Of a stretch of DNA of 56,705 nucleotides, positions 13,019-27,672 are shown one piece after another. The position numbers and the translations under genes are program-made. The stretch lies in contig JAHEEE010000019.1 of the NCBI GenBank assembly GCA_024640845.1, forward strand, positions 1 through 56,705, read 5' to 3'. The notes beneath the pieces were generated by a model. That model saw only the letters and a program-made list of their open reading frames with translations, had not been told where the DNA came from and did no database searches. Source of the DNA: Myxococcales bacterium (GTDB lineage: Bacteria > Myxococcota_A > Polyangia > Polyangiales > Houyiibacteriaceae). Within the stretch, counting starts at the first letter, position 1, and every line of letters starts with the position of its first letter.

Positions 13019-14059
13019 CTAGCTCACGCGGGCCGAGCCCGCGTCCGGTTCTGCTTTGGTCCCTCGGCTAGCCATGATCTCGTCGTACCAAACGTCGTGA
13101 TGCAGCTCCGCCCAGCGTTCGTCCACCTCACCGCCCACCATGGCTTCGAGCGTACCCTCGTTGCCGATGGTCGCGAGGTACATGTGCACCAAGGAAAAGC
13201 AGATCAGACCGATTGCGGAAGCGATGTGGAAAAGACTGGACAACTGCATGGTAGATCGCGACCACTCAAAATTCGGTGTTAGTAAGAAGAGGCCTGACGC
13301 GACCACCACCAGGCCGGCGACGGAGAGAAACCAGTACCAGACCTTTTCGCCCGCGTTGTTGAAGCCCGCGGGCACGTGCTCACGAGTCAAGTACCCGCCA
13401 ACCTTCTTGAACCATTCCAAATCATAGGACGTGAAAAAGTTGTATTTCATCCAAGCGACTACGGTCAGCAGCAAGAACGCGATGAAAAAAGGAGAGGCGT
13501 AATCATGGACCGGCTTTGAAACGGCTGCGACGGCCCCAAAGGCTTCCTTGCCCACCAAGGGCATCAGCACGTATCTCCCGAACAAGAGCCCTAGTCCCGT
13601 CAAGGCCAGCAGCAGGAAACTGACGGTCAGCCCCCAATGGATGAACCGGTCGAAGGCCGACCAGCGCTTGATCGTCCTGCCTGTGCGGTGATCCAGCTTC
13701 CATGTCCCTTTGAAGATCTGGAGCAAACCCAGCGCAAGCACTACGCCAGCCATGAGCCATGCGCCGATGGTGGAGGCGGGTCCGTTGCGGAGCTCTTGCC
13801 AGGTCTCACCGCCGTCTTGAATCAGCACGTTGGCTTCGGGACCAGTGACGGCCGAATAGCCTTGCGCGCCATGGCGCACCTCTCTCCAATACTCCGCACG
13901 CGGATTCTGCGAAGCCTCACGAGCCTTCTCCTGGTCGCTTGCCTCGGCTCCAGCGGACGATTCGGTCAACGTGACAGAAAGAGCGATAGGCGCGGTGACA
14001 ACGATCCACCCTCCGAGAACGAGCGCGAGCCAACTTCTTCGCCGCCGCTCAGATTTCAT
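13019..14059 (-). CDS. fdhC: Formate dehydrogenase cytochrome b subunit
   Basis: FdhC is the membrane anchor that takes electrons from FdhB and reduces quinone through two b hemes. Of its 346 residues, 1-30 form a hydrophobic N-terminal signal or anchor, residues 35-95 are a periplasmic extension, and four core membrane helices follow. Likely heme ligands are His141 (FDRFIHWG), His185 (KPVHDY), His278 (LFHIAS) and His292 (LVHMYL). The periplasmic extension is longer than in E. coli FdnI, as in Wolinella- or Rhodobacter-type subunits. Start at 14059 is chosen because it overlaps the fdhB stop by 11 bases and the basic KSERRRRSW begins directly. A GTG-type start 24 bases earlier is possible. 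It is the last enzyme subunit gene in the operon. Confidence 0.9.
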   Translation of the reverse strand: MKSERRRRSWLALVLGGWIVVTAPIALSVTLTESSAGAEASDQEKAREASQNPRAEYWREVRHGAQGYSAVTGPEANVLIQDGGETWQELRNGPASTIGAWLMAGVVLALGLLQIFKGTWKLDHRTGRTIKRWSAFDRFIHWGLTVSFLLLALTGLGLLFGRYVLMPLVGKEAFGAVAAVSKPVHDYASPFFIAFLLLTVVAWMKYNFFTSYDLEWFKKVGGYLTREHVPAGFNNAGEKVWYWFLSVAGLVVVASGLFLLTPNFEWSRSTMQLSSLFHIASAIGLICFSLVHMYLATIGNEGTLEAMVGGEVDERWAELHHDVWYDEIMASRGTKAEPDAGSARVS

Positions 14060-14648
14060 GGCTGCCGTCCTTGTAGGCGACATCCCAGCCCCAGGTGTCA
14101 GGACGCGTGTTGCGCCTCATGCTGCGCTCCCGGAAGATATCAGCGACCTCATCGCCATCGCCCGCGAGCAGGGCCTTGGTGGCACACATCTCCGCGCACA
14201 AGGGCAACTTGCCTTCAGAGACACGGTTATGGCCGTATTTCTCGAGCTCCGCCTGGGAGCCGTCTTCTTCGGGCCCGCCAGCGCAGAACGTGCATTTGTC
14301 CATCTTGCCGCGTGTCGCGAAGGCGTCCTGCTGCGGGAACTGCGGCGCGCCGAACGGACAGGCGTAGAAGCAGTAGCCGCAGCCAATGCAAATGTCCTTG
14401 TCGTGCAACACGATGCCGTCATCGGTGGTGTAGAAGCAGTCCACCGGGCAGACCGCCGCGCACGGCGCGTCCGAGCAGTGCATGCAAGCGACCGAGATTG
14501 ATCTCTCGCCCGGCTCACCGTCGCCGAGCGTCACCACGCGGCGGCGGTTGATGCCCCACGGCACCTCGTTCTCGTTCTTGCAGGCGGTCACGCAGCCATT
14601 GCATTCGATGCAGCGCTCGGCGTCACAGAGAAACTTCATTCTTGCCAT
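14049..14648 (-). CDS. fdhB: Formate dehydrogenase iron-sulfur subunit
   Basis: FdhB wires FdhA to the cytochrome b subunit. Its 199 residues hold four ferredoxin-type clusters visible as Cys groups: Cys13/16/19/23 (CIECNGC), Cys55/58/63/67 (CMHCSDAPC), Cys87/90/93/97 (CIGCGYC) and Cys119/122/151/155, whose last pair lies in LPLCAEMC. Unlike E. coli FdnH there is no C-terminal membrane helix, so docking must rely on FdhA and FdhC. A Shine-Dalgarno AGGAGT precedes the ATG at 14648. The stop at 14049 overlaps the fdhC start. It follows fdhA by 13 bases, consistent with one operon and a fixed subunit ratio. Confidence 0.95.
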   Translation of the reverse strand: MARMKFLCDAERCIECNGCVTACKNENEVPWGINRRRVVTLGDGEPGERSISVACMHCSDAPCAAVCPVDCFYTTDDGIVLHDKDICIGCGYCFYACPFGAPQFPQQDAFATRGKMDKCTFCAGGPEEDGSQAELEKYGHNRVSEGKLPLCAEMCATKALLAGDGDEVADIFRERSMRRNTRPDTWGWDVAYKDGSHEI

Positions 14649-14661
14649 GGCGTTCAGACTC

Positions 14662-17553
14662 CTATGCTGGGATAATGCGACAAAGGCTGCACTTGGTTTC
14701 CTGCATCGCGGTCACCGAGTCGTAGCCATAGGTGAAAACAGTGTTGGCGGCCTCGCCGCGAACATAGGGCTCGGTCCCCTGCGGATATTTGTCGATGAGG
14801 TCCTTGCCCTCGTACCAGCCACCAAAGTGGAAGGGGGTGAACACGACACCGCGCGCAACCCTACGGGTCACCATGGCCTTGACCTTGATGCGCCCACCTT
14901 CTGGGCCTTCCACCCATATGTCGCTGCCGTCTCGAATGCCGTGGTCATTCGCGTCCGCGGGGTTGATCTCGGCGAACATGTTTTGCTGTAGCTCGGCGAG
15001 CCACGGGTTGGAGCGGGTCTCTTCGCCGCCCCCTTCATATTCTACCAAGCGCCCACTGGTGTGAATCAGCGGGTATTTCTCGGAATAGTCTGTCGCCTGT
15101 ATCGACGCATAGCGGGTCGGTAGGCGCCAGAAGCTCTTGCGGTCCTCGTAGGTCGGGTACTTCTCGACCAGATCCCGGCGAGTCGTGTACAGAGGCTCGC
15201 GATGCACCGGAATCGGGTCCGGAAAAGTCCAGACGTTGCATCGGGCCTTCGCGTTGCCGAACGGAGAGCAGTTGTGCTTGATTGCGACCCGCTGAATGCC
15301 GCCCGATAGGTCGGTCTTCCAGTTCTTGCCTTCGGCGGCTTTCTTCTCCTCGGCCGTGAGGTCATCCCACCAACCAAGTTGCTTGAGGAGGTCCGCTGTG
15401 AACTCGGGATAACCGTCTTTGATGCCGGAGTCCTTGCCCCAGGAACCCTCGGCGAGGAGGTTGACCCCTTCGTGCTCGACACCGAAGCGGGCCCGGAAGG
15501 TGAGGCCCCCTTCGGCCACCGTCTTGCTCGTGTCGTACAACACCGGAGTGCCCGGGTGCTTCATTTCAGGCGTGCCCCAGCAAGGCCAGGGCAAACCGTA
15601 GTAATCACCATCGCAGGGGCCACCCTCGGCCTTGAGCGTGGTGATGTTGAACGTGTGCCGATTCTGAGCGTGCAGCTTGAGGCGTTCCGGGCTTTGACCC
15701 GTGTAGCCAATGGTCCAGGAGCCGCGATTGATCTCGCGTAGGATGTCTTCGATGAGCGGCTCGTCCTCGTTGACCTCGATGTTCTTGGTCAGTTGTTCGG
15801 CGAAGCCCAGCTTCTTTGCAAACTTGTACAGGATGACATGATCGGGCAGCGATTCGAAGAGTGGCTCGATGACCTTCTCTCGCCATTGGAGGGACCGGTT
15901 CGACGCGGTGAGCGAACCGTAGGTTTCAAACTGGGTCGAAGCCGGCAGCAGGTACATGTTGTCCTTGCGGTCCGGAAGCACGGCTGAATGAGTGGGGTAT
16001 GGGTCGACCACGACCAGCAGGTCCACGATTTCCATGGCCTTTTTCATCTCGGGCTGGCGCGTCTGGCTATTGGGCGCATGCCCCCAGAGGAACATCGCGC
16101 GGATGTTGTCCTTCTGCGCGATGTTTTCCTTGTCTTCGAGAACCCCGTCGATCCATCGGGAGACGGGAATGCCGAAGGTGTTCATCGCGCTGACCGGCGC
16201 GCCACCCACTTCCTCGTAGCTTTCCGGATCGAAGCGGCTCTTAACCCATTCGAAGTCGAGGTCCCAAACCTCGGACCAATGGCGCCAAGCGCCCTCGGAC
16301 AGGCCGTAGTAACAGGGCAGCGTGTTGGCAAGCACGCCAAGATCGGTCGCGCCCTGAACGTTGTCGTGACCGCGAAAGATGTTGGCGCCACCGCCCGATA
16401 CCCCAATGTTGCCGAGTGCCAGCTGGAGCGCGCAGTAGATGCGGGTGTTGTTGTTGCCAATCGTGTGCTGAGTGCCACCCATGCACCAGACGATCGTGCC
16501 AGGCCGATTCTCAGCCATCGTCTGTGCCGCTAGCTTCACCTGGGCCTCGGGTGCCCCGGTGACGTCTTCCACGACCGCGGGCGGCCAGTTCGCCGCCTCC
16601 TCGCGGATCTTGTCCATGCCATAGACGCGCGTGCGAATGTACTCTTTGTCCTCCCAGCCGTTTTCGAAGATGTGCCACAACATGCCGTAAATGAATGGCG
16701 TGTCGCTGCCGGGGCGGATACGCACGAACTGGTCTGCATGGGCGGCGGTTCGCGTGAAACGGGGATCCACGACGATCATTTTGGCGCCGTTCTCCTTGCC
16801 CTTGAGGATATGCAGCAACGACACCGGATGCGCTTCAGTGGGGTTGGAGCCAATGAACAGCATGGCTTTGCAGTTGTGCATGTCGTTGTAGGAGTTCGTC
16901 ATCGCCCCGTATCCCCAGGTGTTCGCCACGCCGGCGACAGTGGTCGAGTGACAGATGCGCGCCTGGTGGTCGACGTTGTTCGTGCCCCACATCGCAGCGA
17001 ACTTGCGGAAGAGATATGCTTGCTCGTTGTTGAACTTGGCCGAGCCCATCCACATCGCGCAGTCGGGCCCGGACTCCTTGCGCATCTTGAGCAGTTGATC
17101 ACCGATATCTTCGATCGCCGCGTCCCAGCTGACGCGTTGCCATTGGCCGCCCACGAGCTTCATCGGGTATTTGAGGCGCCTTTCGCCATGGCCATGCTCG
17201 CGAAGCGCCGCGCCCTTGGCGCAGTGCGCACCGCTATTGAGCGGTGAATCAAAATCCGGTTGTTGCCGCGTCCATACACCATTGCGCACTTCGGCCAGCG
17301 CGCCGCAGCCGACTGAGCAGTGCGAGCAGATCGTGCGCTTCGTGACGGTCTCTCCGGACTCGGCGGTCGCCTTCTGATCGGCGCGTGCCCGCCGCACCAT
17401 CGTATGGGCTAGCCCTGTCGCAATCGCACCGCCTCCGAGTGTCAAACCAGTCCGCTGCATGAAGGCGCGGCGGTTGATCGCTTTTCCGAGCGTTCCTTCC
17501 GGTGGGGCGTCTGGGGTGGGTCTGGGATGCTTGCTGGTCTTGGTGAGTTTCAC
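14662..17553 (-). CDS. fdhA: Formate dehydrogenase catalytic (Mo/W-bis-PGD) subunit, Cys type
   Basis: FdhA oxidises formate to CO2 at a bis-pterin molybdenum or tungsten centre. The 963-residue protein starts with a Tat signal (INRRAFMQRTGLTLGGGAI, residues 26-44), predicting export of the folded enzyme to the periplasm. A [4Fe-4S] site follows: Cys76, Cys79, Cys83 and Cys111. The metal ligand is Cys201 followed by His202 in QARICHSTTVAG, the position that is selenocysteine in E. coli FdnG, so no Sec machinery is needed. No in-frame TGA is found. The C-terminal cofactor-closing domain reaches the last residue (CSLCRIIPA). The start is a GTG at 17553 with a GGGAGA Shine-Dalgarno. Tungsten rather than molybdenum is suggested only by the adjacent tupABC genes. 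Confidence 0.96.
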   Translation of the reverse strand: MKLTKTSKHPRPTPDAPPEGTLGKAINRRAFMQRTGLTLGGGAIATGLAHTMVRRARADQKATAESGETVTKRTICSHCSVGCGALAEVRNGVWTRQQPDFDSPLNSGAHCAKGAALREHGHGERRLKYPMKLVGGQWQRVSWDAAIEDIGDQLLKMRKESGPDCAMWMGSAKFNNEQAYLFRKFAAMWGTNNVDHQARICHSTTVAGVANTWGYGAMTNSYNDMHNCKAMLFIGSNPTEAHPVSLLHILKGKENGAKMIVVDPRFTRTAAHADQFVRIRPGSDTPFIYGMLWHIFENGWEDKEYIRTRVYGMDKIREEAANWPPAVVEDVTGAPEAQVKLAAQTMAENRPGTIVWCMGGTQHTIGNNNTRIYCALQLALGNIGVSGGGANIFRGHDNVQGATDLGVLANTLPCYYGLSEGAWRHWSEVWDLDFEWVKSRFDPESYEEVGGAPVSAMNTFGIPVSRWIDGVLEDKENIAQKDNIRAMFLWGHAPNSQTRQPEMKKAMEIVDLLVVVDPYPTHSAVLPDRKDNMYLLPASTQFETYGSLTASNRSLQWREKVIEPLFESLPDHVILYKFAKKLGFAEQLTKNIEVNEDEPLIEDILREINRGSWTIGYTGQSPERLKLHAQNRHTFNITTLKAEGGPCDGDYYGLPWPCWGTPEMKHPGTPVLYDTSKTVAEGGLTFRARFGVEHEGVNLLAEGSWGKDSGIKDGYPEFTADLLKQLGWWDDLTAEEKKAAEGKNWKTDLSGGIQRVAIKHNCSPFGNAKARCNVWTFPDPIPVHREPLYTTRRDLVEKYPTYEDRKSFWRLPTRYASIQATDYSEKYPLIHTSGRLVEYEGGGEETRSNPWLAELQQNMFAEINPADANDHGIRDGSDIWVEGPEGGRIKVKAMVTRRVARGVVFTPFHFGGWYEGKDLIDKYPQGTEPYVRGEAANTVFTYGYDSVTAMQETKCSLCRIIPA

Positions 17554-17608: not shown

Positions 17609-17809
17609 TCAGAGTCTGGCGGTTTCGTAATAGCGGCGAATGTGAGCCGTTTCCCGGTAGCCCCCCTGCGGGCTGTCGGGTGCAGCCGACGATTTGCCTT
17701 CCTTAGTGGTCTTGCAGGCGGCGCCGACTGCCGCCGTAGCGCCTGCGGCGACTACGGCACTGAGAAACTGGCGCCTTTCGAGGCGTTTGGTGGTCTTTTG
17801 TTCTTTCAC
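17609..17809 (-). CDS. Small Tat-signal protein of formate dehydrogenase regions
   Basis: The 66-residue product is almost only a Tat signal: KRLERRQFLSAVVAAGATAA, followed by a Cys (GAACKTT) and a short hydrophilic tail ending in RRYYETARL. Small proteins of this layout are conserved just upstream of fdhA in many Proteobacteria and are named formate dehydrogenase region TAT target proteins. Their job is unknown; a helper that escorts FdhA or stabilises the complex is a reasonable guess. The GTG at 17809 is taken as start because it overlaps the torD-like stop (GTGA) and sits 7 bases after a GGAG. A longer upstream frame would run inside that chaperone gene and is not used. Confidence 0.8.
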   Translation of the reverse strand: MKEQKTTKRLERRQFLSAVVAAGATAAVGAACKTTKEGKSSAAPDSPQGGYRETAHIRRYYETARL

Positions 17810-18447
17810 GAGGCTGCTCCTACGCCGAGATAACGGCCTTCGATTTCCATCAGCTCCCGGCCCAGCGTGCCAACCGCCTGATAGAAGCGGGCGGAAGGCG
17901 CGTTCGCCAAGTCGGTAAACAAAGTCTGCATCCACGGTGCGATGTGCCGGCCGAAAAACTCACGCTGCTCTTCCAGCGCGTCCGGTGCTGCGTCCGCAAC
18001 GATCGAGGCCATGACTTCGCAAACAGCGGCAGCGTGATCTTCGGGTTCGCATACCCCAGGGCGTCGCTCAAAACCCAATCGGGTCAGGTCATCGCGCAGA
18101 TCGGCAAGCGGGCGGTCGTTCAGGTAACCGGTGAGATATCGCGAGGCATACGGAACAATCTCGCCGGAACCAAGACCGATGAACAGAGCGTGATATTCGC
18201 GGGCGAGCTCTCGAGGAGCCGCGTGGATCGCAGCTTCACGCAAGGCGCCCCAAGCCGGCGCGAGACTCCCGTTTTCCTCGTTCGGGGTTTCGCCGTTGGT
18301 GCGTGCGATTTCGCGCAGGCGCCCGAGCGTGTCTTCCGTGGGCGCCGCGGCGAGCAGGTGTGCGAGCAGGCTGTACGCATTTGCCCGCAACGCTTGATAG
18401 CCATTCCCATCGATCGCGGCTTCCAAGGTGTCCATTTGAGCAGTCAC
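17806..18447 (-). CDS. TorD/DmsD-family redox-enzyme maturation chaperone
   Basis: This all-helical protein belongs to the TorD family, which binds the Tat signal of a molybdoenzyme and holds it back until the cofactor is inserted. Visible family marks are the N-terminal helix YQALRANAYSLLAHLLAAAP and the segment AREYHALFIGLGSGEIVPYA, which holds the family EYHxLFxG...PYAS pattern. A C-terminal helix pair includes FGRHIAPWMQTLFTDLA. Its client should be FdhA, three genes on. The start is uncertain: the GTG at 18447 has a weak GGAG upstream and gives 213 residues, a usual length. A GTG at 18543 would add 32 residues without homology-like features, and an ATG at 18435 is also possible. Confidence 0.85.
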   Translation of the reverse strand: MTAQMDTLEAAIDGNGYQALRANAYSLLAHLLAAAPTEDTLGRLREIARTNGETPNEENGSLAPAWGALREAAIHAAPRELAREYHALFIGLGSGEIVPYASRYLTGYLNDRPLADLRDDLTRLGFERRPGVCEPEDHAAAVCEVMASIVADAAPDALEEQREFFGRHIAPWMQTLFTDLANAPSARFYQAVGTLGRELMEIEGRYLGVGAAS

Positions 18448-18586
18448 GATTGCTTGCTCCGACTGGCGCTCGAAACCAGAGTCACCCTCACAGCCGGAGT
18501 CTACGTCTTTCTGCCGTCGACGAATAGGGCCGATGTGGCTCACCCTAGAGGGTGCAGGGACGGCTTCAGCCCCGGGATCCGCGGCC

Positions 18587-20554
18587 TCAGCGCGTCATAT
18601 CGCGGACACGGCAATCGCCACACATTTGTAGCCTTCGGAGCGCTTCCTCCGACTGGAACATCGGGTGCCCTTGGAGCTTGCGCGCGATGTTGTCGAGCAT
18701 CGAGCGCGTGGCCAGGGATTTCCCGCAGATGATGCAGGAGAGCGGCTCATCTTCGTGAAGAACCCGGCGGGCACCGCGCCGTTCTGCATCGGTCAGAAAT
18801 CGGGCATTTCGAGTGATCGCGTCCTCTGGGCAGGCGTCCTCGCAAAGACCGCACTGCACGCAGTTCCATTCCTTGAAGCTAAGGCTGGGGAGCTCGCCGC
18901 CGGCGTTTAGGGCTGAGGTCGGGCAAACACCAACGCAACTCATGCACAGCGTGCACTTCTCGGGATCCACTCGAACCTCGCCGAAAGGCGCGTCCGCGGG
19001 CAGCGCGATCTCGTCCGGTTGCCGGGGAGCCCGTCTCACCAGGTGCATCAACGCGAGTTTCAGTGCGGTACGTTTGTCGCTGAGCGCATCGAAGCTGGCC
19101 GGCGCCTCGACCCATTCGTCCGGGAAGCGATCTTCCGCGCTCCAGCTCGAGTCCTCACCCCCGCCCGGGTACACGATCTGGATCATGCGTCGGTCGTAGC
19201 CCAATCCTTCGAGCAAGGCGTGGGCGATGGTGGCTTGGTGGAGCAACTCCGCGTTGATGCGCTCGGGTGTGCCTGGCCCGACGGTCACCAAGACGGCCCG
19301 AGCACCGTAAGCGAGGCAGCTCAGCCATGTATCCATACCGACAGACCCGCTTTCCTCCACCGGCACTTGCAGTAATTGCCCGGCGCGTTTGAGCGTGGCC
19401 TCAATCGCGTTCGCGCTGCGCTCGTCGTGAAAAACGACGCATGCCCCACTGCCACCGGCCTCACCATAAGCCGCTAGCAAGCGCTTGATGTGGGTTTGCA
19501 GGTCGCCTGACTGCGGCATCGCATACGTAATCGCCCCAGTTGGGCAGGTGGTCGCGCAAATGCCTCCGCCCTGGCACAGGTTTGGATTCACTTGAACGCA
19601 GTCGCCGAGGGAAATAATCGCCTCGGTGGGACAGGTCTCAATGCAGCGACTGCAGCCTTGAAGGCCTTTCTGACCGTGCGCACAGATCGTGGTGTCGAGG
19701 TTGAAGAACTTCGGCTTTTCAAACGTACCGCGTAGCTCGGCAAGCTCCGCAAGGGCGGCGGTCAGCGCCTCCTCGCTGCGACCGGGGTGGAAGTACCCGA
19801 GTGGCGGCATCTCCGCTTGAATGCACGCGGTATTCTCCAAATCCAGCACCAGGTCGATTTGAGCGTCGGCTACGGGCAGTAGCGCCGACAGCGGCACGGT
19901 CTCCTCTTGGCTGCGAATGCCGACCTCGAACTCACCGAGCCAGCCTTTGATGTCCGGTTGACCGCTCGTGATGACCGCGTGGCCCTGGATCTTGTCGACT
20001 CGGGGCGCCTCCGGGCCGGGCGTGAAAACCGTGCAGACGAATTCAGGGATCAGCTGGGCGGCGGTCTGCAATGCCACATCTCGTTCGCCGATGATCAGTA
20101 GTTTGCCGGTCGAGCTGAACTCGATTACCGAGGTGGGCGTGACTTGCACATCTTTCACCGCATCGAAGGCGGCGGCGCGGGCCTTGTGGTTGGGGGTGGA
20201 CCCAGCGGCAGGAGCCGGGGTCGATGCGGGCGCCGTGCCGGCTCGAGCTGCCGCGGCCTCGAGGCGGTGCCGCATCTCCGCGGTGACGATGTCACCCAGA
20301 GGGGCATGCTGGGTATAGTCTTCGGCGTAATCGTCCAGCCCGTCCGTGACGTTGAACTTGGGACTGGAAAAGAGCTTGCGTAGGGCGGCACGCCTGAGTT
20401 CAGGGCTCACGGCCTTCGATAAAAAGTCGCTGTAGTCGGAGTCTGGACCGAGGCTCTCCAGCGGAGGCATCTCCTCATCGGTCTTCTGCTCTTGAGGCTC
20501 GGCCGCCTCTTTCTCCTCGGTCGGTTCCTGCTCGTGCCCTTCCTCCGAGCTCAT
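18587..20554 (-). CDS. DUF3306 domain fused to multi-cluster ferredoxin protein
   Basis: The 655-residue protein joins two parts that are normally separate genes in formate dehydrogenase clusters. Residues about 25-95 match DUF3306 (PPLESLGPDSDYSDFL and RKLFSSPKFNVTDGLDDYAE). A linker rich in Ala and Pro follows. The rest is a soluble iron-sulfur protein with ferredoxin-like motifs CSRCIETCPTEAI, CATTCPTGAI, CTLCMSCVGVCP and CVQCGLCEDACPEDAI. A last CxxC pair set (CIICGKS and MCGDCRV) resembles a zinc ribbon or rubredoxin site. Up to four [4Fe-4S] clusters are possible, so it could move electrons to or from formate dehydrogenase or its maturation. The ATG overlaps the DUF3305 stop (ATGA). Function is unknown; the context in the fdh operon is strong. 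Confidence 0.88.
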   Translation of the reverse strand: MSSEEGHEQEPTEEKEAAEPQEQKTDEEMPPLESLGPDSDYSDFLSKAVSPELRRAALRKLFSSPKFNVTDGLDDYAEDYTQHAPLGDIVTAEMRHRLEAAAARAGTAPASTPAPAAGSTPNHKARAAAFDAVKDVQVTPTSVIEFSSTGKLLIIGERDVALQTAAQLIPEFVCTVFTPGPEAPRVDKIQGHAVITSGQPDIKGWLGEFEVGIRSQEETVPLSALLPVADAQIDLVLDLENTACIQAEMPPLGYFHPGRSEEALTAALAELAELRGTFEKPKFFNLDTTICAHGQKGLQGCSRCIETCPTEAIISLGDCVQVNPNLCQGGGICATTCPTGAITYAMPQSGDLQTHIKRLLAAYGEAGGSGACVVFHDERSANAIEATLKRAGQLLQVPVEESGSVGMDTWLSCLAYGARAVLVTVGPGTPERINAELLHQATIAHALLEGLGYDRRMIQIVYPGGGEDSSWSAEDRFPDEWVEAPASFDALSDKRTALKLALMHLVRRAPRQPDEIALPADAPFGEVRVDPEKCTLCMSCVGVCPTSALNAGGELPSLSFKEWNCVQCGLCEDACPEDAITRNARFLTDAERRGARRVLHEDEPLSCIICGKSLATRSMLDNIARKLQGHPMFQSEEALRRLQMCGDCRVRDMTR

Positions 20555-21027
20555 GACCGTTCGCTTTCCGTCCAGTTCCGACGCTTACGCTTCTTGCGTT
20601 CACGCGGCACGTAGTTCTCTACGACGAACTCTTCGAGCCGTCGATAGATATCGGGCGGAATGGGTGCGCGAAAGACCTTGTCGTCACCCTCGGTGGAGGC
20701 GGCGGCCTCCAAGCCATCCGCAGTGACGATCAAGGGTTGCATGCCGCCGTCCTCGGTCTCTGTGCAGATCACAAACAGCGAGGGCAGCTCGCCCGTGAGG
20801 TTGTGCCAATAACTTTCGCAGCTGTCCAAGTAGAGGTTGAGGCGATATCCGCCCCACAGGTATTGATCGTCCTCGTCTCTGATCAGCACCGGTTCGGAAA
20901 CCTCGCCGCCGCTGTGTTCGCCTCCAACGACGCCGACGACATTCCATTGCGGCACGGCCCAGCCCTTGCCCTGGACGAGCTTCTTCTCCAGCACGACGGC
21001 GACGGGAATGTGGAGCGACTTGCCCAT
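20551..21027 (-). CDS. DUF3305-family protein of the formate dehydrogenase cluster
   Basis: The 158-residue cytosolic protein opens with IPVAVVLEKKLVQGKGWAVP and carries the family pattern of a Trp-Gly-rich middle (YLWGGYRLNLYLDSCESYWH) and PSLFVICTE. It ends in a basic tail (PRERKKRKRR). This matches DUF3305, a family found almost only beside DUF3306 and 4Fe-4S genes upstream of formate dehydrogenase operons. No catalytic motif is visible. Its stop overlaps the start of the DUF3306-ferredoxin gene by four bases, so the two are translated in step and may form one complex. Recognition rests on recalled family features and gene order. Confidence 0.8.
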   Translation of the reverse strand: MGKSLHIPVAVVLEKKLVQGKGWAVPQWNVVGVVGGEHSGGEVSEPVLIRDEDDQYLWGGYRLNLYLDSCESYWHNLTGELPSLFVICTETEDGGMQPLIVTADGLEAAASTEGDDKVFRAPIPPDIYRRLEEFVVENYVPRERKKRKRRNWTESERS

Positions 21028-21050
21028 GCCTGTTGATTCGAACCGACGGG

Positions 21051-21272
21051 CTAGGCCAGTGCGAGGTCACCTTCGATAACTACGGTCTTGCCAAGTTCAG
21101 GCAGTTCCAAGGTTACCCGGGCATGCACCGTGCCGTCGACGCCCAGCTGTCCGCGTTCTACGGCGCCATAAATGGCGCGCTCCATTTCTCGCTGCGAGGT
21201 GATACCGACCTTCTTCAGAAATTTTCGGATCTCCAGGTTCAGCGCGTCGTCATCGGGTTTGCCATCGCTCAT
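21051..21272 (-). CDS. Small DUF6494-like protein
   Basis: The 73-residue protein begins with an acidic stretch, then has LNLEIRKFLKKVGITSQREM, which is typical of the DUF6494 family, and ends with a beta-rich acidic half (HARVTLELPELGKTVVIEG). The upstream part of the open frame is discarded, because the ATG at 21272 has a GAGGA Shine-Dalgarno 6 bases before it. It is the first gene of the minus-strand formate dehydrogenase operon and lies 23 bases before the DUF3305 gene. Function is unknown. A regulatory or cofactor-related role is a guess from position only. Confidence 0.7.
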   Translation of the reverse strand: MSDGKPDDDALNLEIRKFLKKVGITSQREMERAIYGAVERGQLGVDGTVHARVTLELPELGKTVVIEGDLALA

Positions 21273-21284
21273 GAGGCTTCCTCG

Positions 21285-21313
21285 TTGTTGGGGACTGCCT
21301 GCGACAGTATACC
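21285..21313 (+). promoter_or_regulatory. Candidate sigma70-type promoter for tupBCA-mob operon
   Basis: A TTGTTG at 21285-21290 and a TATACC at 21308-21313 are separated by 17 bases, the standard spacing. The predicted start of transcription would be near 21320, leaving a leader of about 40 bases before the tupB ATG. The -10 matches four of six consensus bases, the -35 three of six. It overlaps the opposite promoter of the formate dehydrogenase operon. Confidence 0.3.
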
Positions 21314-21334
21314 CGCTCCTAACCTTTCGCAAAC
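21306..21334 (-). promoter_or_regulatory. Candidate promoter for the minus-strand fdh operon
   Basis: Read on the minus strand, TATACT at 21311-21306 is a five-of-six -10 element, with a weak GTTTGC at 21334-21329 after a 17-base spacer. The leader to the ATG at 21272 would be about 27 bases. The central GTATAC is a palindrome shared with the plus-strand -10, so both operons could start from one melted region and share control. Confidence 0.35.
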
Positions 21335-21361: not shown

Positions 21362-22066
21362 ATGGACGAGTTTTCCAATGCCTCTCGCACCGCGCTACAC
21401 CTGCTGGCCGAAATGCACCCGGACCTGATCGAAATCGTGCTGTTGTCCTTGCGGGTCAGTCTGTCAGCCGTGGTTCTAGCCGCCCTGCTCGCCCTGCCAT
21501 TGGGTGCATTCGTCGCGCTGAAACCATTCCCAGGCAGGCGCGGTATCGTAATACTCATGAATGCGCTGATGAGCCTGCCACCGGTCGTGGTCGGGTTGGT
21601 AATCTACCTTCTGCTGTCTCGCACTGGCCCTTTTGGCGTCACGGGGTTGTTGTTCACCCCCGCAGCAATGATTATTGCCCAGTGCGTGTTGGTGTTCCCC
21701 ATCATCGCGGCGCTGACCCGGCAAACCGTGTTCGATCTGCATGAAGAGTACGATGAGTACTTGCGGTCCCTGGGCGCTGGCACTTGGCAGAAGATCACCA
21801 CACTGTTGTGGGACGGCCGGGCACGCTTGCTGACCGGGATACTCGCCGGATTCGGTCGCGCAATCGCGGAGGTTGGCGCCGTAATCATCGTGGGCGGAAA
21901 CATCGTGCACAGTACCCGCGTGATGACGACAACCATTGCCCTCGAAACCAGCAAGGGCGATCTGGGGATGGCGCTGGGGCTCGGCATCATCCTCGTGCTC
22001 ATTGCGGTTGTCGTGAACACCGCCGTCGTCACAATCGGGGGCAGCGCGAGTCGGCGCACGCTCTGA
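21362..22066 (+). CDS. tupB: Tungstate ABC transporter permease
   Basis: TupB is the membrane channel of an oxyanion importer. The 234-residue protein has five hydrophobic helices and the permease loop that docks to the ATPase (EEYDEYLRSLGAGTWQKITT, the EAA-like motif). The following segment GFGRAIAEVGAVIIVGGNI is the signature of TupB-type permeases and distinguishes it from ModB. The ATG at 21362 is the first start of the frame. It heads the plus-strand operon, divergent from the formate dehydrogenase genes, and ends 6 bases before tupC. Tungstate as substrate follows from similarity to Tup rather than Mod systems; molybdate cannot be excluded. Confidence 0.9.
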   Translation: MDEFSNASRTALHLLAEMHPDLIEIVLLSLRVSLSAVVLAALLALPLGAFVALKPFPGRRGIVILMNALMSLPPVVVGLVIYLLLSRTGPFGVTGLLFTPAAMIIAQCVLVFPIIAALTRQTVFDLHEEYDEYLRSLGAGTWQKITTLLWDGRARLLTGILAGFGRAIAEVGAVIIVGGNIVHSTRVMTTTIALETSKGDLGMALGLGIILVLIAVVVNTAVVTIGGSASRRTL

Positions 22067-22072
22067 GTCCGT

Positions 22073-22798
22073 ATGCGGTTGCAGCACGATATGTTGCCGC
22101 TCGTGGTAAGCCACGTGAGCTATCGTGTGGATGGCAAAGCGATCATCGAAGAAGTGTCGTTCGCGATCAACGATCCGGGTCTCACCGTCCTGCTCGGACC
22201 CAATGGGGCCGGCAAGAGCAGTCTGTTGAAGTTGTGCCATGGATTGTTGCCCCCGAGCTCCGGCTCGATCCGCTGGGGCGATGCGGATGCACGGACGGCC
22301 CGACAGAAGCAAGCAATGGTGTTTCAGCGGCCGGTCCTGTTGCGCCGGTCGGCTGCCGAAAACATCGACCACGCGCTCAAGCTCCGGGGAGCATCAGCGG
22401 CCGAACGTGCCGGGGTGATCGAGGAGTCGCTCGCGTGGGCTGGACTGGGCGACGTAGCCAACATGCCAGCGCGCAAGCTTTCGGGCGGGGAACAACAGAG
22501 CCTGACCATCGCGCGTGCCTGGGCGCTGAATCCCGAAGTGCTGCTCCTAGACGAACCCACAGCAAACCTTGATCCGAGTGCCACACGGCGCGTCGAGAAC
22601 TTGATCCGTTCGTTTGCGGCAACCGGTAGAAAGATCATCATGGCGACGCACAATATTGCCCAGGCTCGACGCCTTGCCGACGAGGTGCTGTTCATGAATC
22701 ATGGCCGTCTGTTGGAGCATGCGCCGGCCGAGCGCTTTATGGGCGGACCATCGAATCCGCTGGCGGCGCGTTTCATCGCAGGGGAGCTGGTCGAGTAA
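22073..22798 (+). CDS. tupC: Tungstate ABC transporter ATP-binding protein
   Basis: This 241-residue ATPase powers the importer. It has a Walker A (GPNGAGKSS), Q-loop (MVFQRPVLLRRSA), ABC signature (LSGGEQQS), Walker B (VLLLDEPTANLDP) and the switch His (MATHN). No C-terminal oxyanion-sensing TOBE domain follows, unlike ModC, which fits TupC. The gene begins 6 bases after tupB and ends 2 bases before tupA, so all three are clearly one transcript. The order permease-ATPase-binding protein differs from the common tupABC order, in which the binding-protein gene comes first. Confidence 0.9.
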   Translation: MRLQHDMLPLVVSHVSYRVDGKAIIEEVSFAINDPGLTVLLGPNGAGKSSLLKLCHGLLPPSSGSIRWGDADARTARQKQAMVFQRPVLLRRSAAENIDHALKLRGASAAERAGVIEESLAWAGLGDVANMPARKLSGGEQQSLTIARAWALNPEVLLLDEPTANLDPSATRRVENLIRSFAATGRKIIMATHNIAQARRLADEVLFMNHGRLLEHAPAERFMGGPSNPLAARFIAGELVE

Positions 22799-22800
22799 GA

Positions 22801-23655
22801 ATGCAGGAGACTCACAGGAAGATACTCTCCGCCGCGGCGGTGCTCGTCGTTCTGGCCGCGGTCGCGTCTTTGGTGTTTCTCTCTTCGCCGAAGGGGCCGT
22901 CCATCACCGTCGCATCGACGACCTCGACCGAGAACTCGGGACTCTTCGGATATCTGTTGCCGATCTTCATGACTGAAACTGGCATCAACGTCCGCGTCGT
23001 GGCCGTGGGCACAGGGCAGGCGATACGTATGGCGATGAAGGGCGACGCGGACGTGTTGTTGGTCCATCATCGGGCTTCTGAGGAAAAATTCGTCAACGAA
23101 GGCTACGGCGTCGAGCGTACCGCGCTCATGCACAACGATTTCGTAATCGTCGGTCCGGCATCCGATCCCGCGGGCATCAAGGGCACCGAGGACCCCGCGG
23201 ACGCGCTACGTCGAATTCGCTCCAGTCGTGCGACCTTCGTTTCCCGAGGTGATGACAGCGGAACCCACAAACGAGAGCTTGGCTTGTGGAAGGCGCTCGG
23301 CTCCCTGCCTAGAAACGACGATGCCGACTGGTATCGCGAGTCCGGTGCCGGGCAGGGTGCGACGCTCAACATCGCCAGTGAAGTGGACGGGTATTGCCTG
23401 TCGGATCGGGCCACTTGGGTCAAGTTCGCCAACAAGCGCAACCTCGAAATCCTGGTCCAGGGTGATCCGCAGCTGTTGAATCCGTATTCGTTGATTCTCG
23501 TGAGCAAACAGAAGCATCCTCATGTAAGAACGGCGGAGGGGCAGCAGTTCATCGACTGGTTGACGTCGGAGCACGGCCAGGAACTGATTGCTGCTTACCG
23601 CGTGGACGGCCAGCAGCTGTTCTTTCCTGATGCGCTGGAAGCGGCAAAGGAATAG
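22801..23655 (+). CDS. tupA: Tungstate-binding periplasmic protein
   Basis: TupA captures the oxyanion in the periplasm and hands it to TupB. The 284-residue protein has an N-terminal hydrophobic segment (AAAVLVVLAAVASLVFLSS) acting as signal or anchor. The ligand motif TTSTENSGLFGYLLP and the hinge motif TFVSRGDDSGTHKREL are both characteristic of TupA. Ligand contacts are expected at the Thr/Ser of the first and the Ser-Gly-Thr of the second. There is no obvious lipobox Cys, so it may stay attached by an uncleaved helix. It lies between tupC and mobA with gaps of 2 and 6 bases. Confidence 0.92.
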   Translation: MQETHRKILSAAAVLVVLAAVASLVFLSSPKGPSITVASTTSTENSGLFGYLLPIFMTETGINVRVVAVGTGQAIRMAMKGDADVLLVHHRASEEKFVNEGYGVERTALMHNDFVIVGPASDPAGIKGTEDPADALRRIRSSRATFVSRGDDSGTHKRELGLWKALGSLPRNDDADWYRESGAGQGATLNIASEVDGYCLSDRATWVKFANKRNLEILVQGDPQLLNPYSLILVSKQKHPHVRTAEGQQFIDWLTSEHGQELIAAYRVDGQQLFFPDALEAAKE

Positions 23656-23661
23656 GCAGCG

Positions 23662-24273
23662 ATGAGCCGGCGGCGCATTACCGGACTCGTGTTGGCAGGC
23701 GGTCGCGCGACGCGTTGGGACGGCCGCGACAAGGGACTGATCGAAGTGTACGGCCGGCCCATGATCGGCCACGTGCTCGAGGCTCTGGAATCGCAGGTCG
23801 AGCAGGTCATCATCAACGCGAATCGCAATCTCGATCGATATCGAGCTTTTGGAGCGCCGGTGGTGACCGACGAGAGCAGCGACTACCGTGGGCCGCTAGC
23901 CGGGCTCGCCAGCGGCCTAGCCGCCGCGAAGACCGACTGGGTGGTCATCGTCCCCTGTGATGCACCGCTCATTTCGGAAGATTGCGTCGACCGATTGGCG
24001 TCAGCCCTCGAGGACGATCCGAGCGCCGATGTTGCCGTCGCTCATGACGGTAAGCGGATTCAGCCCGTGTTTGCGCTGGTTCGACGCAATCTTCGCGACG
24101 ATTTGCAGGCCTTCCTCAATTCAGGCGGACGCAAAATCGACCAATGGTACGGGAGGCAGCGAATGCGGCTTGTGGATTTCAGCGATAGGCTGGACACTTT
24201 CGTCAACATCAATGGGCCCGAGGACTTGAATCTGTTGGAAAGCCAGATGAAGCAACGGCATCATATCCGATGA
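23662..24273 (+). CDS. mobA: Molybdenum cofactor guanylyltransferase
   Basis: MobA adds GMP to the pterin to give the guanine dinucleotide cofactor that FdhA needs. The 203 residues begin with the nucleotidyltransferase motif LVLAGGRATRWDGRDKGL, which binds GTP. The metal-binding Asp lies in the PCDAPLI motif near residue 94, and RIQPVFALV follows as the second substrate loop. Length is usual for MobA. The final ATGA overlaps the moeA start, so the two enzymes of late cofactor assembly are made together. Its presence beside FdhA supports a bis-MGD enzyme. Confidence 0.93.
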   Translation: MSRRRITGLVLAGGRATRWDGRDKGLIEVYGRPMIGHVLEALESQVEQVIINANRNLDRYRAFGAPVVTDESSDYRGPLAGLASGLAAAKTDWVVIVPCDAPLISEDCVDRLASALEDDPSADVAVAHDGKRIQPVFALVRRNLRDDLQAFLNSGGRKIDQWYGRQRMRLVDFSDRLDTFVNINGPEDLNLLESQMKQRHHIR

Positions 24274-25523
24274 GGGCGGATCAGAAAGCCGGCTGTGGCC
24301 ATGACGAGCCAGCACTGCCCTTGAGCAAGGCGCGGGATCGAGTGTGTGAGGCGGCGGTGTCCGTCTCCGAGACCGAATCGCTTCCGATTAGGCAGGCGCT
24401 GGGGCGGGTGCTGGCCGAAGATGTGCGCTCGGCGATCGACGTGCCGGGGCACGCGAACTCGGCCATGGATGGTTACGCGTTGCGGGCCGGGGACTTGCCT
24501 AACGAGGCTCCGCGTGCCCTCACATTAATTGGCGCCGCATTCGCTGGTCGGCCGTTTTTGGGTCGCGTCAACCAAGGACAATGCGTCCGCATCATGACAG
24601 GTGCGCCCGTGCCAGACGGCGCCGACACCGTGGTCATGCAGGAACGCGTAAGCGTGGATGCCGAGCGGGTGCAGGTCAATGCCTTGCCCGCCGCCGGCGC
24701 CAATGTGCGCCAAGCCGGCGAAGACATCAAAGCCGGTCAGGTCGCTTTAGAAGATGGGGTGCAGTTGAGGCCCGCCCACATCGGGCTGCTGGCATCGATC
24801 GGCGTTGCCGAGGTGACGGTGCTGCGCCGACCGCGGGTCGCGTTCTTTTCCACTGGCGACGAGCTCTGTGAGGTCGGCAGGCCTACGAGACCGGGCCAGA
24901 TCTACGATAGCAATCGCTACACCCTCTTCGGCATGTTGCAACGGCTGGATGTCGAGGCCATCGATCTCGGTGTGATCCGCGACCGCCCCGAAGAGCTCGA
25001 AGCGGGTCTTGCGCGTGCGGCTGAAGGAGCAGATCTCATCATCACTTCAGGCGGGGTCTCGGTGGGAGAGGCGGACTACCTCTTGGAGGTCGCCGAGCGT
25101 TTGGGCAAGGTGGACTTCTGGTCGGTTGCGATCAAGCCTGGCAGACCAACCGTATTCGGCAAACTAGGCGATGCGCTCTATCTCGGTTTACCGGGCAATC
25201 CGGTTTCTGTGATGGTCACATTCTACCAATTAGCCAAGCCGGCCATCGAGAAGCTCAGCGGGTTGCAGCCGCGGGAACCGCTCCTGATTCGCGCGTTGTG
25301 CATGGCAACCATCAAGAACAAAGCCGGCCGAAGGGAATTCTTGCGTGGCGTCCTGTCCCGTGATGAAACGGGTCGGTACATCGTGTCGAAGACGGGACAC
25401 CAGGGTTCCGGCATCCTTAGCTCGATGACGCAGGCGAACTGTTTCATCGTCGTTCCCGAGGATTCAGAGCTCATCGAAGCCGGTTCGCAAGTCGACGTGC
25501 AGCCCTTCGAGGCGCTGGTCTAG
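24270..25523 (+). CDS. moeA: Molybdopterin molybdenumtransferase
   Basis: MoeA inserts molybdate, or tungstate, into adenylylated molybdopterin. The 417-residue protein shows the MoeA order: the N-terminal domain with HANSAMDGYALRAGDL, the loop RIMTGAPVPDGADTVVMQE, and the MoaB-like central domain with FFSTGDEL and ITSGGVSVGEADYL. A KPGRPTVFG strand, LPGNPVSVMV and a C-terminal beta domain follow. All the motifs that touch the pterin look intact. It overlaps mobA by four bases at its start. It is followed after 12 bases by the propeller gene, suggesting that the accessory proteins downstream are expressed together with cofactor synthesis. Confidence 0.95.
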   Translation: MRADQKAGCGHDEPALPLSKARDRVCEAAVSVSETESLPIRQALGRVLAEDVRSAIDVPGHANSAMDGYALRAGDLPNEAPRALTLIGAAFAGRPFLGRVNQGQCVRIMTGAPVPDGADTVVMQERVSVDAERVQVNALPAAGANVRQAGEDIKAGQVALEDGVQLRPAHIGLLASIGVAEVTVLRRPRVAFFSTGDELCEVGRPTRPGQIYDSNRYTLFGMLQRLDVEAIDLGVIRDRPEELEAGLARAAEGADLIITSGGVSVGEADYLLEVAERLGKVDFWSVAIKPGRPTVFGKLGDALYLGLPGNPVSVMVTFYQLAKPAIEKLSGLQPREPLLIRALCMATIKNKAGRREFLRGVLSRDETGRYIVSKTGHQGSGILSSMTQANCFIVVPEDSELIEAGSQVDVQPFEALV

Positions 25524-25535
25524 AAGAACTACGCA

Positions 25536-26618
25536 ATGGCGGAGCAGAATGACGTTACCCTTCTCGTCGGCACGCGAAGGGGGCTGTTTCGCGTTCGAAG
25601 TGACGCATCGCACACGCGATGGGAGATTGAAAAGCCGCAAATCGAAGGCTACGAGATCGCGCACGTCTGCGCACATCCGACGGAGCCCGGGCGCTTCCTT
25701 GCCGCAGCGAATCACAACATTTGGGGCGCACATGTTTACGTGAGCGACGATCGGGGTTCGAATTGGGAGCCTCTCGGTTCGGCACCCCATCATGCGCAAG
25801 GCCGCCACAAGCAGAGCCTGAAAGCGATCTGGTACCTCGCGATGACGCCGGACGGCCGGCGACTCTACGCCGGTATCGATCCCGCGGGGCTGTTCGTTTC
25901 GGACGACCTCGGCGAAACCTGGCGACCGGTCGAGGCGCTCAATGAACATCCCACGAATCGTTTCTGGGAGCCCTCCAAGGGCATCTTTGCGGTACATTCC
26001 GTGTGCATCGATCCGTGCGATCCGAAGCGGATTTTCGCTGCCGTTTCTGCAGGCGGCGTTTATCGCAGCTCGGATGGCGGCCAGAGCTGGGATACGGCCA
26101 ACGAGGGCATTCGCGCGGAGAACATTCCACGAAAGAACCCCGAAGCGGGCCATAACGTGCACCGGCTGATTATGCATCCGTGTGGTCGACTCTACCGGCA
26201 GTGTTACAACGGGGTGTACCGAAGCGACGACGGTGCGCGATCATGGTTTGAAATTACCGGCGATGTGCCGAGCGATTATGGCTTCGCAATCGCGACCAGC
26301 GCTGCCGATGCGGATACTCTCTTTCGGATCCCGATGTCGAATGCACACATGCGGGCAACGGTAGATGGCCGTTTGCGCGTCTACCGAAGCAGCGACGGGG
26401 GAGCTACCTGGGGCGATGCCAGCAACGGTCTGCCACAGCAGCACGCTTATGTGGGTGTGCTCCGGGAGGCGATGGACACCGCAGTCGGTGAACCTTGTAG
26501 GGTCTATTTTGGAACCAACGGTGGACACCTGTTTGCCAGTGGCGATGCAGGTGTTAACTGGAAAATGCTGGCCGCATTCTTGCCCCCCATATCGAGCGTG
26601 CTGGCCTGGGCGATATGA
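25536..26618 (+). CDS. Asp-box (BNR) beta-propeller protein of the cofactor operon
   Basis: The 360-residue protein has six Asp-box repeats, SxDxGxxW type: residues 70-77 (SDDRGSNW), 122-129 (SDDLGETW), 178-185 (SSDGGQSW), 230-237 (SDDGARSW), 285-292 (SSDGGATW) and 335-342 (SGDAGVNW). It should fold as a six- or seven-bladed propeller. No signal peptide is visible, so it is probably cytosolic. Sialidase catalytic residues (Arg triad, Tyr/Glu) are not obvious, and a glycosidase role is unlikely. Its place between moeA and the YqeC-like gene, with an ATGA overlap into the latter, points to a role in Mo/W cofactor handling. That role is an inference and no function is known. Confidence 0.8.
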   Translation: MAEQNDVTLLVGTRRGLFRVRSDASHTRWEIEKPQIEGYEIAHVCAHPTEPGRFLAAANHNIWGAHVYVSDDRGSNWEPLGSAPHHAQGRHKQSLKAIWYLAMTPDGRRLYAGIDPAGLFVSDDLGETWRPVEALNEHPTNRFWEPSKGIFAVHSVCIDPCDPKRIFAAVSAGGVYRSSDGGQSWDTANEGIRAENIPRKNPEAGHNVHRLIMHPCGRLYRQCYNGVYRSDDGARSWFEITGDVPSDYGFAIATSAADADTLFRIPMSNAHMRATVDGRLRVYRSSDGGATWGDASNGLPQQHAYVGVLREAMDTAVGEPCRVYFGTNGGHLFASGDAGVNWKMLAAFLPPISSVLAWAI

Positions 26619-27373
26619 CCGACGACGACATACTCGATCTCTTCCACGCGCGTCGCGGCGTGATTTGCGCAGTGGGCGCAGGGGGCAAAAAGAGCACGCT
26701 CTACAACCTCGTGGCTCGGCATCCGGGCCGCGTGGCGCTCACCGGAACGGTGTTCACAGCGCGATTTCCGGCACACCTGGGCCTGACGTCCGCCATTGCC
26801 GAGGAGTCGGATCTCCCCGCTCGAGCGGAGGCGATCTCTCAGATGGATCGCATTGGATTTGCTGCTCCGTCCGGCAAACCGGGGCGCTATGCCGGTCTTG
26901 CAACTGAAATGGTGTCGCGCTTGCACGCGGAGACGAGGCGCGACGCAACGTTTGTGAAAGCAGATGGGGCCCGCATGCGCTGGCTCAAGGCACCCAGGGA
27001 AGGCGAGCCAGTGTTGCCAGCCAACTGCAGCACGTTGATATGCATTTGCTCGGCTCAGGCGCTTGGCAAGCCGTTGTCATACGAGATCGCTCATCGCTTG
27101 GAGCGGATCACGGCGGTAACCGAGTTGCAGGAAGGCGAAGTGATCGAGCCGCAGCACCTGGCACGGCTGATGGTCAGTGATTCCGGAATGCTCAAGGGTT
27201 CTCGAGGTCGCACCGTGGTGCCGGTGATCAACATGGTCGATGACGCAGAGAGAGAAGGGCTCGCGCGCCAGGTGGCGCAGATGGCTCTCACAAACACGTG
27301 CCGTTTTGACCGGGTCATACTCACCTCAATGCGCAGGACCGATGAACCGGTGGTTGCCGTGGTTGAGCGTTAG
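26615..27373 (+). CDS. yqeC: YqeC-like P-loop protein
   Basis: The 252-residue protein begins with a P-loop (AVGAGGKKST, residues 19-28), followed by ALTGTVFTARFP and the segment FVKADGARMRWLKAPREGEP, which matches the YqeC family hallmark of Asp-Gly-Ala-Arg and Lys-Ala-Pro. YqeC was named for its phylogenetic link to selenium-dependent molybdenum hydroxylases. Here the neighbouring enzyme is a Cys-type formate dehydrogenase and no selenium genes are visible. A nucleotide-driven cofactor-handling role for Mo or W is therefore a better fit. The start overlaps the propeller stop (ATGA). The symbol is assigned by family resemblance only. Confidence 0.78.
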   Translation: MTDDDILDLFHARRGVICAVGAGGKKSTLYNLVARHPGRVALTGTVFTARFPAHLGLTSAIAEESDLPARAEAISQMDRIGFAAPSGKPGRYAGLATEMVSRLHAETRRDATFVKADGARMRWLKAPREGEPVLPANCSTLICICSAQALGKPLSYEIAHRLERITAVTELQEGEVIEPQHLARLMVSDSGMLKGSRGRTVVPVINMVDDAEREGLARQVAQMALTNTCRFDRVILTSMRRTDEPVVAVVER

Positions 27374-27390
27374 TTGCGAAGAGGTGAGGT

Positions 27391-27672
27391 GTGAGTCGTG
27401 TGACTATCCGTATTCCTTACGCTTTGCGGCCATTCACCGATGGTGCGGCTGAGATCACCGTGGATACCGACACGCTCGGGCATGCGCTCGCGACCTTGGA
27501 AGAACGCCACCCCGGGGTCAGGGCGCGCGTCCTTACGCCGGAGGGCGACATTCGGCCCAACGTGAACCTCTTCATAGGCGAGGAGAGCGCTCGTTCCATG
27601 AATGGCCTCGAAACGCCTCTGGGGGACGGCACGGTCGTTTCGATCATTCCCGCGGTGGCTGGAGGCCGGTAA
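27391..27672 (+). CDS. MoaD/ThiS-like sulfur-carrier protein with C-terminal Gly-Gly-Arg
   Basis: The 93-residue ubiquitin-fold protein starts at a GTG with a GAGG 6 bases before it. Typical features are the strand VTIRIPYALRPF, the middle GHALATLEERHPG and the end VVSIIPAVAGGR. MoaD and ThiS normally end exactly in Gly-Gly, the site of thiocarboxylation; here one Arg follows, so the protein would need trimming or works in another way. It closes the plus-strand cofactor operon, 17 bases after yqeC. It may donate sulfur to the pterin or the metal centre. This is inference, and a general MoaD would be expected with a MoaE, which is not in the window. Confidence 0.8.
   Translation: MSRVTIRIPYALRPFTDGAAEITVDTDTLGHALATLEERHPGVRARVLTPEGDIRPNVNLFIGEESARSMNGLETPLGDGTVVSIIPAVAGGR

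Follow-up and report, generated by a model that had tools for sequence, protein, structure and literature searches.

Why a gene for a six-Asp-box β-propeller, followed by yqeC and by a gene for a small β-grasp protein, should lie at the end of a run of tungstate uptake and molybdenum cofactor genes was examined in a 56,705 bp stretch of a Myxococcales bacterium genome (GenBank assembly GCA_024640845.1, contig JAHEEE010000019.1, positions 1–56,705), hereafter the window. ORF calls confirmed the three genes (the trio) on the forward strand at 25536–26618, 26615–27373 and 27391–27672, in a run with the order tupB-tupC-tupA-mobA-moeA-propeller-yqeC-carrier and spacings of 6, 2, 6, -4, 12, -4 and 17 nt. 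As originally predicted, the trio follows moeA, the propeller gene starting 12 nt past its end, with a 4 nt (ATGA) overlap between the propeller gene and yqeC and a 17 nt gap between yqeC and the carrier gene. Promoter- and terminator-like sites along the run were no more frequent than expected by chance in this stretch. A formate dehydrogenase (FDH) cluster, from the DUF6494 gene through that for the cytochrome b561-type subunit, diverges from the tupB side of the run, and the features of both are as follows.

13019–14083, reverse strand: cytochrome b561-type subunit of FDH (domain match)
14049–14648, reverse strand: 4Fe-4S subunit of FDH (domain match)
14662–17553, reverse strand: fdhA, Cys-type FDH catalytic subunit, presumed client (PDB 9vap FdhA, 1486 bits; motif RICHSTTVAG)
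17806–18543, reverse strand: TorD/NarJ-like chaperone, FDH cluster (PF02613)
18587–20554, reverse strand: protein with DUF3306 and ferredoxin domains, FDH cluster (domain match)
20551–21027, reverse strand: DUF3305 protein, FDH cluster (domain match)
21051–21332, reverse strand: DUF6494 protein, FDH cluster (domain match)
21362–22066, forward strand: tupB-like ABC transporter permease (NF038017 above cut-off; TupB 151.8 bits, below its cut-off of 320)
22073–22798, forward strand: ABC transporter ATPase in the tupC position (ABC_tran PF00005)
22801–23655, forward strand: tupA-like tungstate-binding protein (best NCBIfam match TupA, 231 bits, below its cut-off of 400)
23662–24273, forward strand: mobA, guanylyltransferase (TIGR02665, 225 bits; cut-off 151.85)
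24270–25523, forward strand: moeA, molybdopterin molybdotransferase (Pfam/NCBIfam)
25536–26618, forward strand: six-Asp-box β-propeller of 360 aa, relative of 3b7f (PDB profile match 8e-108; model pLDDT 90.8, TM 0.91; Asp-boxes)
26615–27373, forward strand: YqeC (TIGR03172), P-loop protein with a SIMIBI-type GTPase fold (family models; model pLDDT 94.5; fold matches)
27391–27672, forward strand: predicted CysO-like sulfur carrier of the MoaD/ThiS superfamily, GTG start, C-terminus PAVAGGR (3dwg CysO, 4e-16; 4n6e, 2.3e-12; ThiS PF02597)

The FdhA encoded in the window, for which the best PDB match was 9vap FdhA, has an apparent twin-arginine leader and an intact active site, and the Cys-His of its motif is kept in the FdhAs of trio organisms. 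DUF3305, DUF3306, DUF6494 and DUF6505 proteins are recurrent in such FDH clusters (window 20551–21332; L041, 7421–8038).

The six Asp-boxes expected in the propeller were located at residues 70, 122, 178, 230, 285 and 335, and inspection of its N-terminus (MAEQNDVTLLVGTRRGLF) agreed with the prediction that there is no signal peptide. Pfam matches were to BNR/Asp-box and Sortilin-Vps10. A profile search matched PDB 3b7f over the full length (positions 4–358), and the TM score of the predicted model to 3b7f places the protein among the 3b7f-type Asp-box propellers. His154, His209, Gln222, Trp99 and Arg310 were invariant in an alignment of 18 relatives; in the predicted model, His154, His209 and Trp99 each lie on the first strand of the respective blade, and the invariant residues may form one pocket.

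A glycosidase function of the propeller is highly improbable, as is its presence in the operon as an unrelated passenger. Relatives are annotated as exo-alpha-sialidase or glycosyl hydrolase, and there is distant fold likeness to GH74 and sequence likeness to GH33 entries. Some arginine and acidic residues are conserved, and the strictly invariant Asp residues all fall inside the Asp-boxes. However, the propeller gene stays next to Mo/W genes across several phyla, and the protein lacks a signal peptide on inspection and scored 72 bits against the F510_1955 glycosylhydrolase model, for which the cut-off is 175. Structure prediction, the check first proposed, gave confident folds for the propeller and YqeC modelled singly. 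A conserved glycosidase active site, named beforehand as a finding against the cofactor role, was not observed; as family matches were only sub-threshold or generic, the glycosidase reading is disfavoured, though not fully closed.

The trio was found in 12 genomes, with mobA/moeA alongside in 10 and mostly beside FDH and/or tupABC genes. A second species of the genus keeps mobA-moeA-propeller-yqeC-carrier at 62–78% identity (L009/L120), with the TorD-like gene and the carrier gene as the two ends of the conserved block there (G011). Further afield, the trio with mobA and moeA was present in Chromatiales and other Gammaproteobacteria (L033–L036), Ectothiorhodospiraceae (L041, L042), Lysobacterales (L043) and Spiribacter salilacus (L046), and in G227 and G338 it occurs with no mobA/moeA next to it. 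An NAD-type FDH directly follows the trio in L033, a second architecture. Among Gemmatimonadota, propeller-yqeC was seen in L037–L039 and moeA-propeller in others, L040 having fdhD just upstream. The genomes were scanned with a three-sequence propeller profile, a broader profile being too diverse. Across 369 gammaproteobacterial genomes, yqeC lay directly downstream of the propeller in 8/8 of those with a propeller of the window clade, and YqeC was above cut-off in 16 of the 361 others (p 9e-11). As most of the genomes compared are MAGs, any single absence carries little weight. As the trio recurs across genomes beside mobA/moeA, FDH and/or tup genes, its Mo/W link is not due to chance or an accident of the window genome. 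In two other genomes of the window genus, apparent cluster remnants were found, a mobA fragment beside yqeC in G014 (L118, 9818–10958) and a yqeC fragment beside the carrier gene in G013 (L119, 9196–9875); neither genome yielded the propeller or fdhA.

In the propeller tree, a strongly supported branch parts all Mo/W-linked propellers from those linked only to a MoaD-like gene and from unlinked ones. A MoaD/ThiS-like gene beside a propeller annotated as exo-alpha-sialidase is a widespread two-gene unit (L003, L005, L006, L010, L012, L013, L049–L056), which in the annotated cases lies far from any Mo gene. On plasmids of Mitsuaria, Pseudomonas and Burkholderia the propeller family is paired with a MoaD-like gene and Mo genes are absent; the association of propeller and β-grasp carrier is therefore the wider one, and what marks the clade of the window is that YqeC joins the two close to Mo/W and FDH genes. 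A lack of co-occurrence with Mo/W enzymes, named beforehand as the finding that would count against a cofactor role, was not seen, as the propeller clade sits with FDH. The trio is thus very probably a maturation module for Mo/W FDH.

The yqeC product belongs to the YqeC family (PF19842, 1.5e-26; TIGR03172, 135.8 bits against a cut-off of 73.05). Its predicted model (pLDDT 94.5) shows the fold of SIMIBI-type GTPases and matches SRP GTPases at Z about 13; the Foldseek matches also include HypB and the G-domains of MeaB/IcmF. A selenium role was rejected, as SelD was not above cut-off in the window genome (G000), in G011 or in 14 of the 15 gammaproteobacterial propeller-yqeC genomes, G338 being the sole holder. 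The selD matches in Gemmatimonadota genomes G061–G064 and G068 each contain one in-frame TGA, as expected for a selenocysteine-containing SelD. Deletion of yqeC in C. difficile gave no obvious phenotype (PMC11448449). YqeC was also found in other Moco clusters and is therefore not diagnostic of sulfuration; no carrier of the trio type was found near YqeC in other contexts (G165, G286 and nine more). In other gammaproteobacteria, yqeC lies near fdhD (L155, L156, L157) or inside Moco or tup clusters (L227, L229, L230), and at these loci 'selenium cofactor biosynthesis protein' seems apt to mislead as a product name.

The small protein matched ThiS (PF02597, 1.9e-9) in Pfam, and its best PDB match was Mycobacterium tuberculosis CysO (3dwg, 4e-16), followed by 4n6e (2.3e-12). 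It ends in PAVAGGR, one extra residue after the GG in which close relatives end. With CysO its closest match and the GG conserved, it is, on sequence, a CysO-like carrier. In mycobacteria MoeZR makes the CysO thiocarboxylate (PMC3227635), and a MoeZ-type rhodanese-E1 (ThiF-rhodanese) adjoins the carrier gene in four trio loci (L035, L043, and L148 and L149 of the G227 and G338 genomes), three of which also have a JAB protease. The window genome has its own MoeZ-type rhodanese-E1 on another contig (L220).

That the small protein is an extra MoaD, serving as the molybdopterin synthase small subunit for a tungsten cofactor with the propeller and YqeC as helpers, is improbable. It falls within the MoaD superfamily, and MoaD genes linked to AOR have been proposed to act in tungsten-cofactor synthesis (PMC1779556), but it is closer to CysO. 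In the window genome canonical MoaD is fused to MoaE on a different contig (L160), making the trio carrier a second carrier; G011 has the fusion as well, and many trio genomes have a canonical MoaD beside MoaE. In addition, an E. coli moeB strain with MoeZR was rescued by MoaD1/MoaD2 but not by mycobacterial CysO (PMC3227635). The canonical-MoaD reading was rejected for the window carrier, which is neither adjacent nor fused to MoaE. Around MoaE, no separate MoaD was evident in L041, L042 or Spiribacter, where the trio carrier might therefore double as MoaD. The one-frame MoaD-MoaE fusion of both species of the window genus (L160, 1446–2495; L161, 1776–2447) resembles mycobacterial MoaX. Use of the carrier as a ubiquitin-like modifier, conjugated to proteins such as the propeller or FdhA and removed by JAB in the manner of archaeal SAMPs, is very unlikely: the SAMP1 model scored 53.8 bits, just below its cut-off of 60, some trio loci have JAB and E1 neighbours and the window carrier has a residue after the GG, but JAB was found in only three trio loci, and JAB and rhodanese-E1 belong just as much to the CysO sulfur pathway.

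FDHs, which convert CO2 to formate and back, need a terminal sulfido ligand in order to be active. The protein known to sulfurate the FDH cofactor is FdhD (PMC10609526, PMC12140954), and FDH organisms lacking fdhD were named as an open caveat in a review (PMC10609526). Outside the window genus, 18 genomes have propeller-yqeC, made up of 10 trio gammaproteobacteria, 5 other holders of the pair and 3 Gemmatimonadota, and FdhD was found in none of them. The FDH type of the window is shared by 45 gammaproteobacteria, of which 38 had FdhD and none had it together with the trio (Fisher p 0.0025, kinship ignored), and four genomes with this FDH type had neither. FdhD absence alone was not significant over all 369 genomes (p 0.11; 8 propeller genomes), the contrast holding among holders of the same FDH. 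Five propeller-yqeC genomes, in which no carrier was seen beside the pair (one at a contig end), lacked this FDH type, the only type searched for. FdhD organisms commonly have fdhD divergent from the DUF3305-DUF3306-TorD-fdhA cluster, and the trio occupies that place in L041, L042 and L046.

The window genome and G011, of the second species of the genus, both have FdhD. In the window genome, fdhD overlaps a gene for another molybdopterin oxidoreductase (L147, 7596–10774; G000:C65), and in G011 it directly adjoins the other oxidoreductase gene in the same order (L222, 7421–10596); the partner in the window genome is apparently of the FdhF/YdeP type, judging by sequence and by a weak match to FdhA. 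FdhD is also kept with the propeller in Gemmatimonadota L040, L044, L047 and L048, where yqeC is not nearby. In the FdhA tree, trio-linked enzymes form essentially one clade, with that of the window separate, and both stand among FdhD-linked enzymes; thus the swap from FdhD to the trio may have happened only once or twice; an independent-pairs test on this tree had too few pairs. No FdhD domain (PF02634) was among the Pfam matches of the three trio proteins, which could therefore at most work like FdhD.

The CysO-like carrier, the rhodanese-E1 and JAB neighbours and the FdhD pattern together suggest an FdhD-independent route of FDH maturation. That the trio is a dedicated Mo/W FDH maturation module standing in for FdhD is close to an even call, and that it supplies the sulfido ligand in place of FdhD is a little less secure. 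More tentatively, a ubiquitin-like, thiocarboxylate-based relay of sulfur through rhodanese-E1, CysO-like carrier, propeller and YqeC, a route undescribed so far, may insert the ligand and replace FdhD. The contacts and chemical steps that we infer for this relay are that the MoeZ-type rhodanese-E1 would charge the C-terminal glycine of the carrier as a thiocarboxylate; that the propeller, as an assembly platform, would bind the charged tail, the metal cofactor that MobA/MoeA make, or both; that YqeC, as a SIMIBI-type nucleotide-binding protein, would gate the hand-over; and that the sulfur would end as the essential sulfido ligand of bis-MGD in FdhA, before Tat export.

It is less likely, and on balance doubtful, that the trio forms a complex for assembly or delivery of the Mo/W cofactor to FDH without sulfuration, with the propeller and YqeC as a chaperone or metallochaperone (for tungstate insertion with MoeA, or for cofactor hand-over) and the lack of FdhD incidental or compensated otherwise. 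The position of the propeller gene directly after moeA would fit such a complex, as would the tup genes in the same run, the likeness of YqeC to SIMIBI GTPases, which include the metallochaperone HypB, and the occurrence of propeller-yqeC without a carrier and of moeA-propeller with FdhD in Gemmatimonadota. However, delivery alone leaves the CysO-type carrier, the rhodanese-E1 and JAB neighbours and the FdhD pattern unexplained. The original prediction of a cytosolic assembly step thus fits a Mo/W enzyme, given the co-localisation of the propeller clade with moeA/mobA/tup/FDH across phyla, but the metal or pterin delivery it suggested is less favoured than sulfur handling, to which the carrier, its neighbours and the missing FdhD point more.

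The three protein families are already known, and neither their combination nor the proposed role was found in the literature searched, which covered FdhD together with YqeC or with sulfur carriers, MoaD in connection with propellers, and sulfuration in connection with YqeC. The trio is a concrete candidate for how some organisms without fdhD activate FDH. If the sulfur relay is correct, a propeller family now labelled sialidase would gain a function and YqeC a role outside selenium metabolism, and active W/Mo FDHs could become easier to produce in laboratory hosts.

PDB 3b7f (Reut_B4987; BNR-repeat, putative glycosyl hydrolase) has the same family and fold as the window propeller (TM 0.91), but shares 34% identity with it and carries no assigned Mo/W role. 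The photosystem II assembly factor Ycf48/HCF136, solved with a D1 peptide (5ojp, 5oj5), is likewise an Asp-box propeller that works in assembly; however, the fold likeness is distant (TM about 0.55) and the target is another, which makes this an analogy rather than membership. The window YqeC is by score a member of the selenium-dependent molybdenum hydroxylase accessory proteins (TIGR03172), which also act around Mo-enzyme maturation, but its partner is an FDH and not a hydroxylase. With the mycobacterial CysO-MoeZ-Mec+ cysteine pathway the trio shares the CysO-type carrier, as well as the rhodanese-E1 in four loci and JAB in three, but it is linked to FDH and Moco genes, and no cysteine synthase (CysM) was among its annotated neighbours. 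With the FdhD/FdsC sulfurtransferase (PF02634) it shares the task proposed for it, namely to sulfurate bis-MGD and deliver it for FDH, and the position divergent from the FDH cluster, and the two have complementary distributions among genomes with the same FDH. They have no sequence relation, and FdhD is one protein fed by IscS, whereas the trio is made up of the carrier, the propeller and the GTPase-like YqeC.
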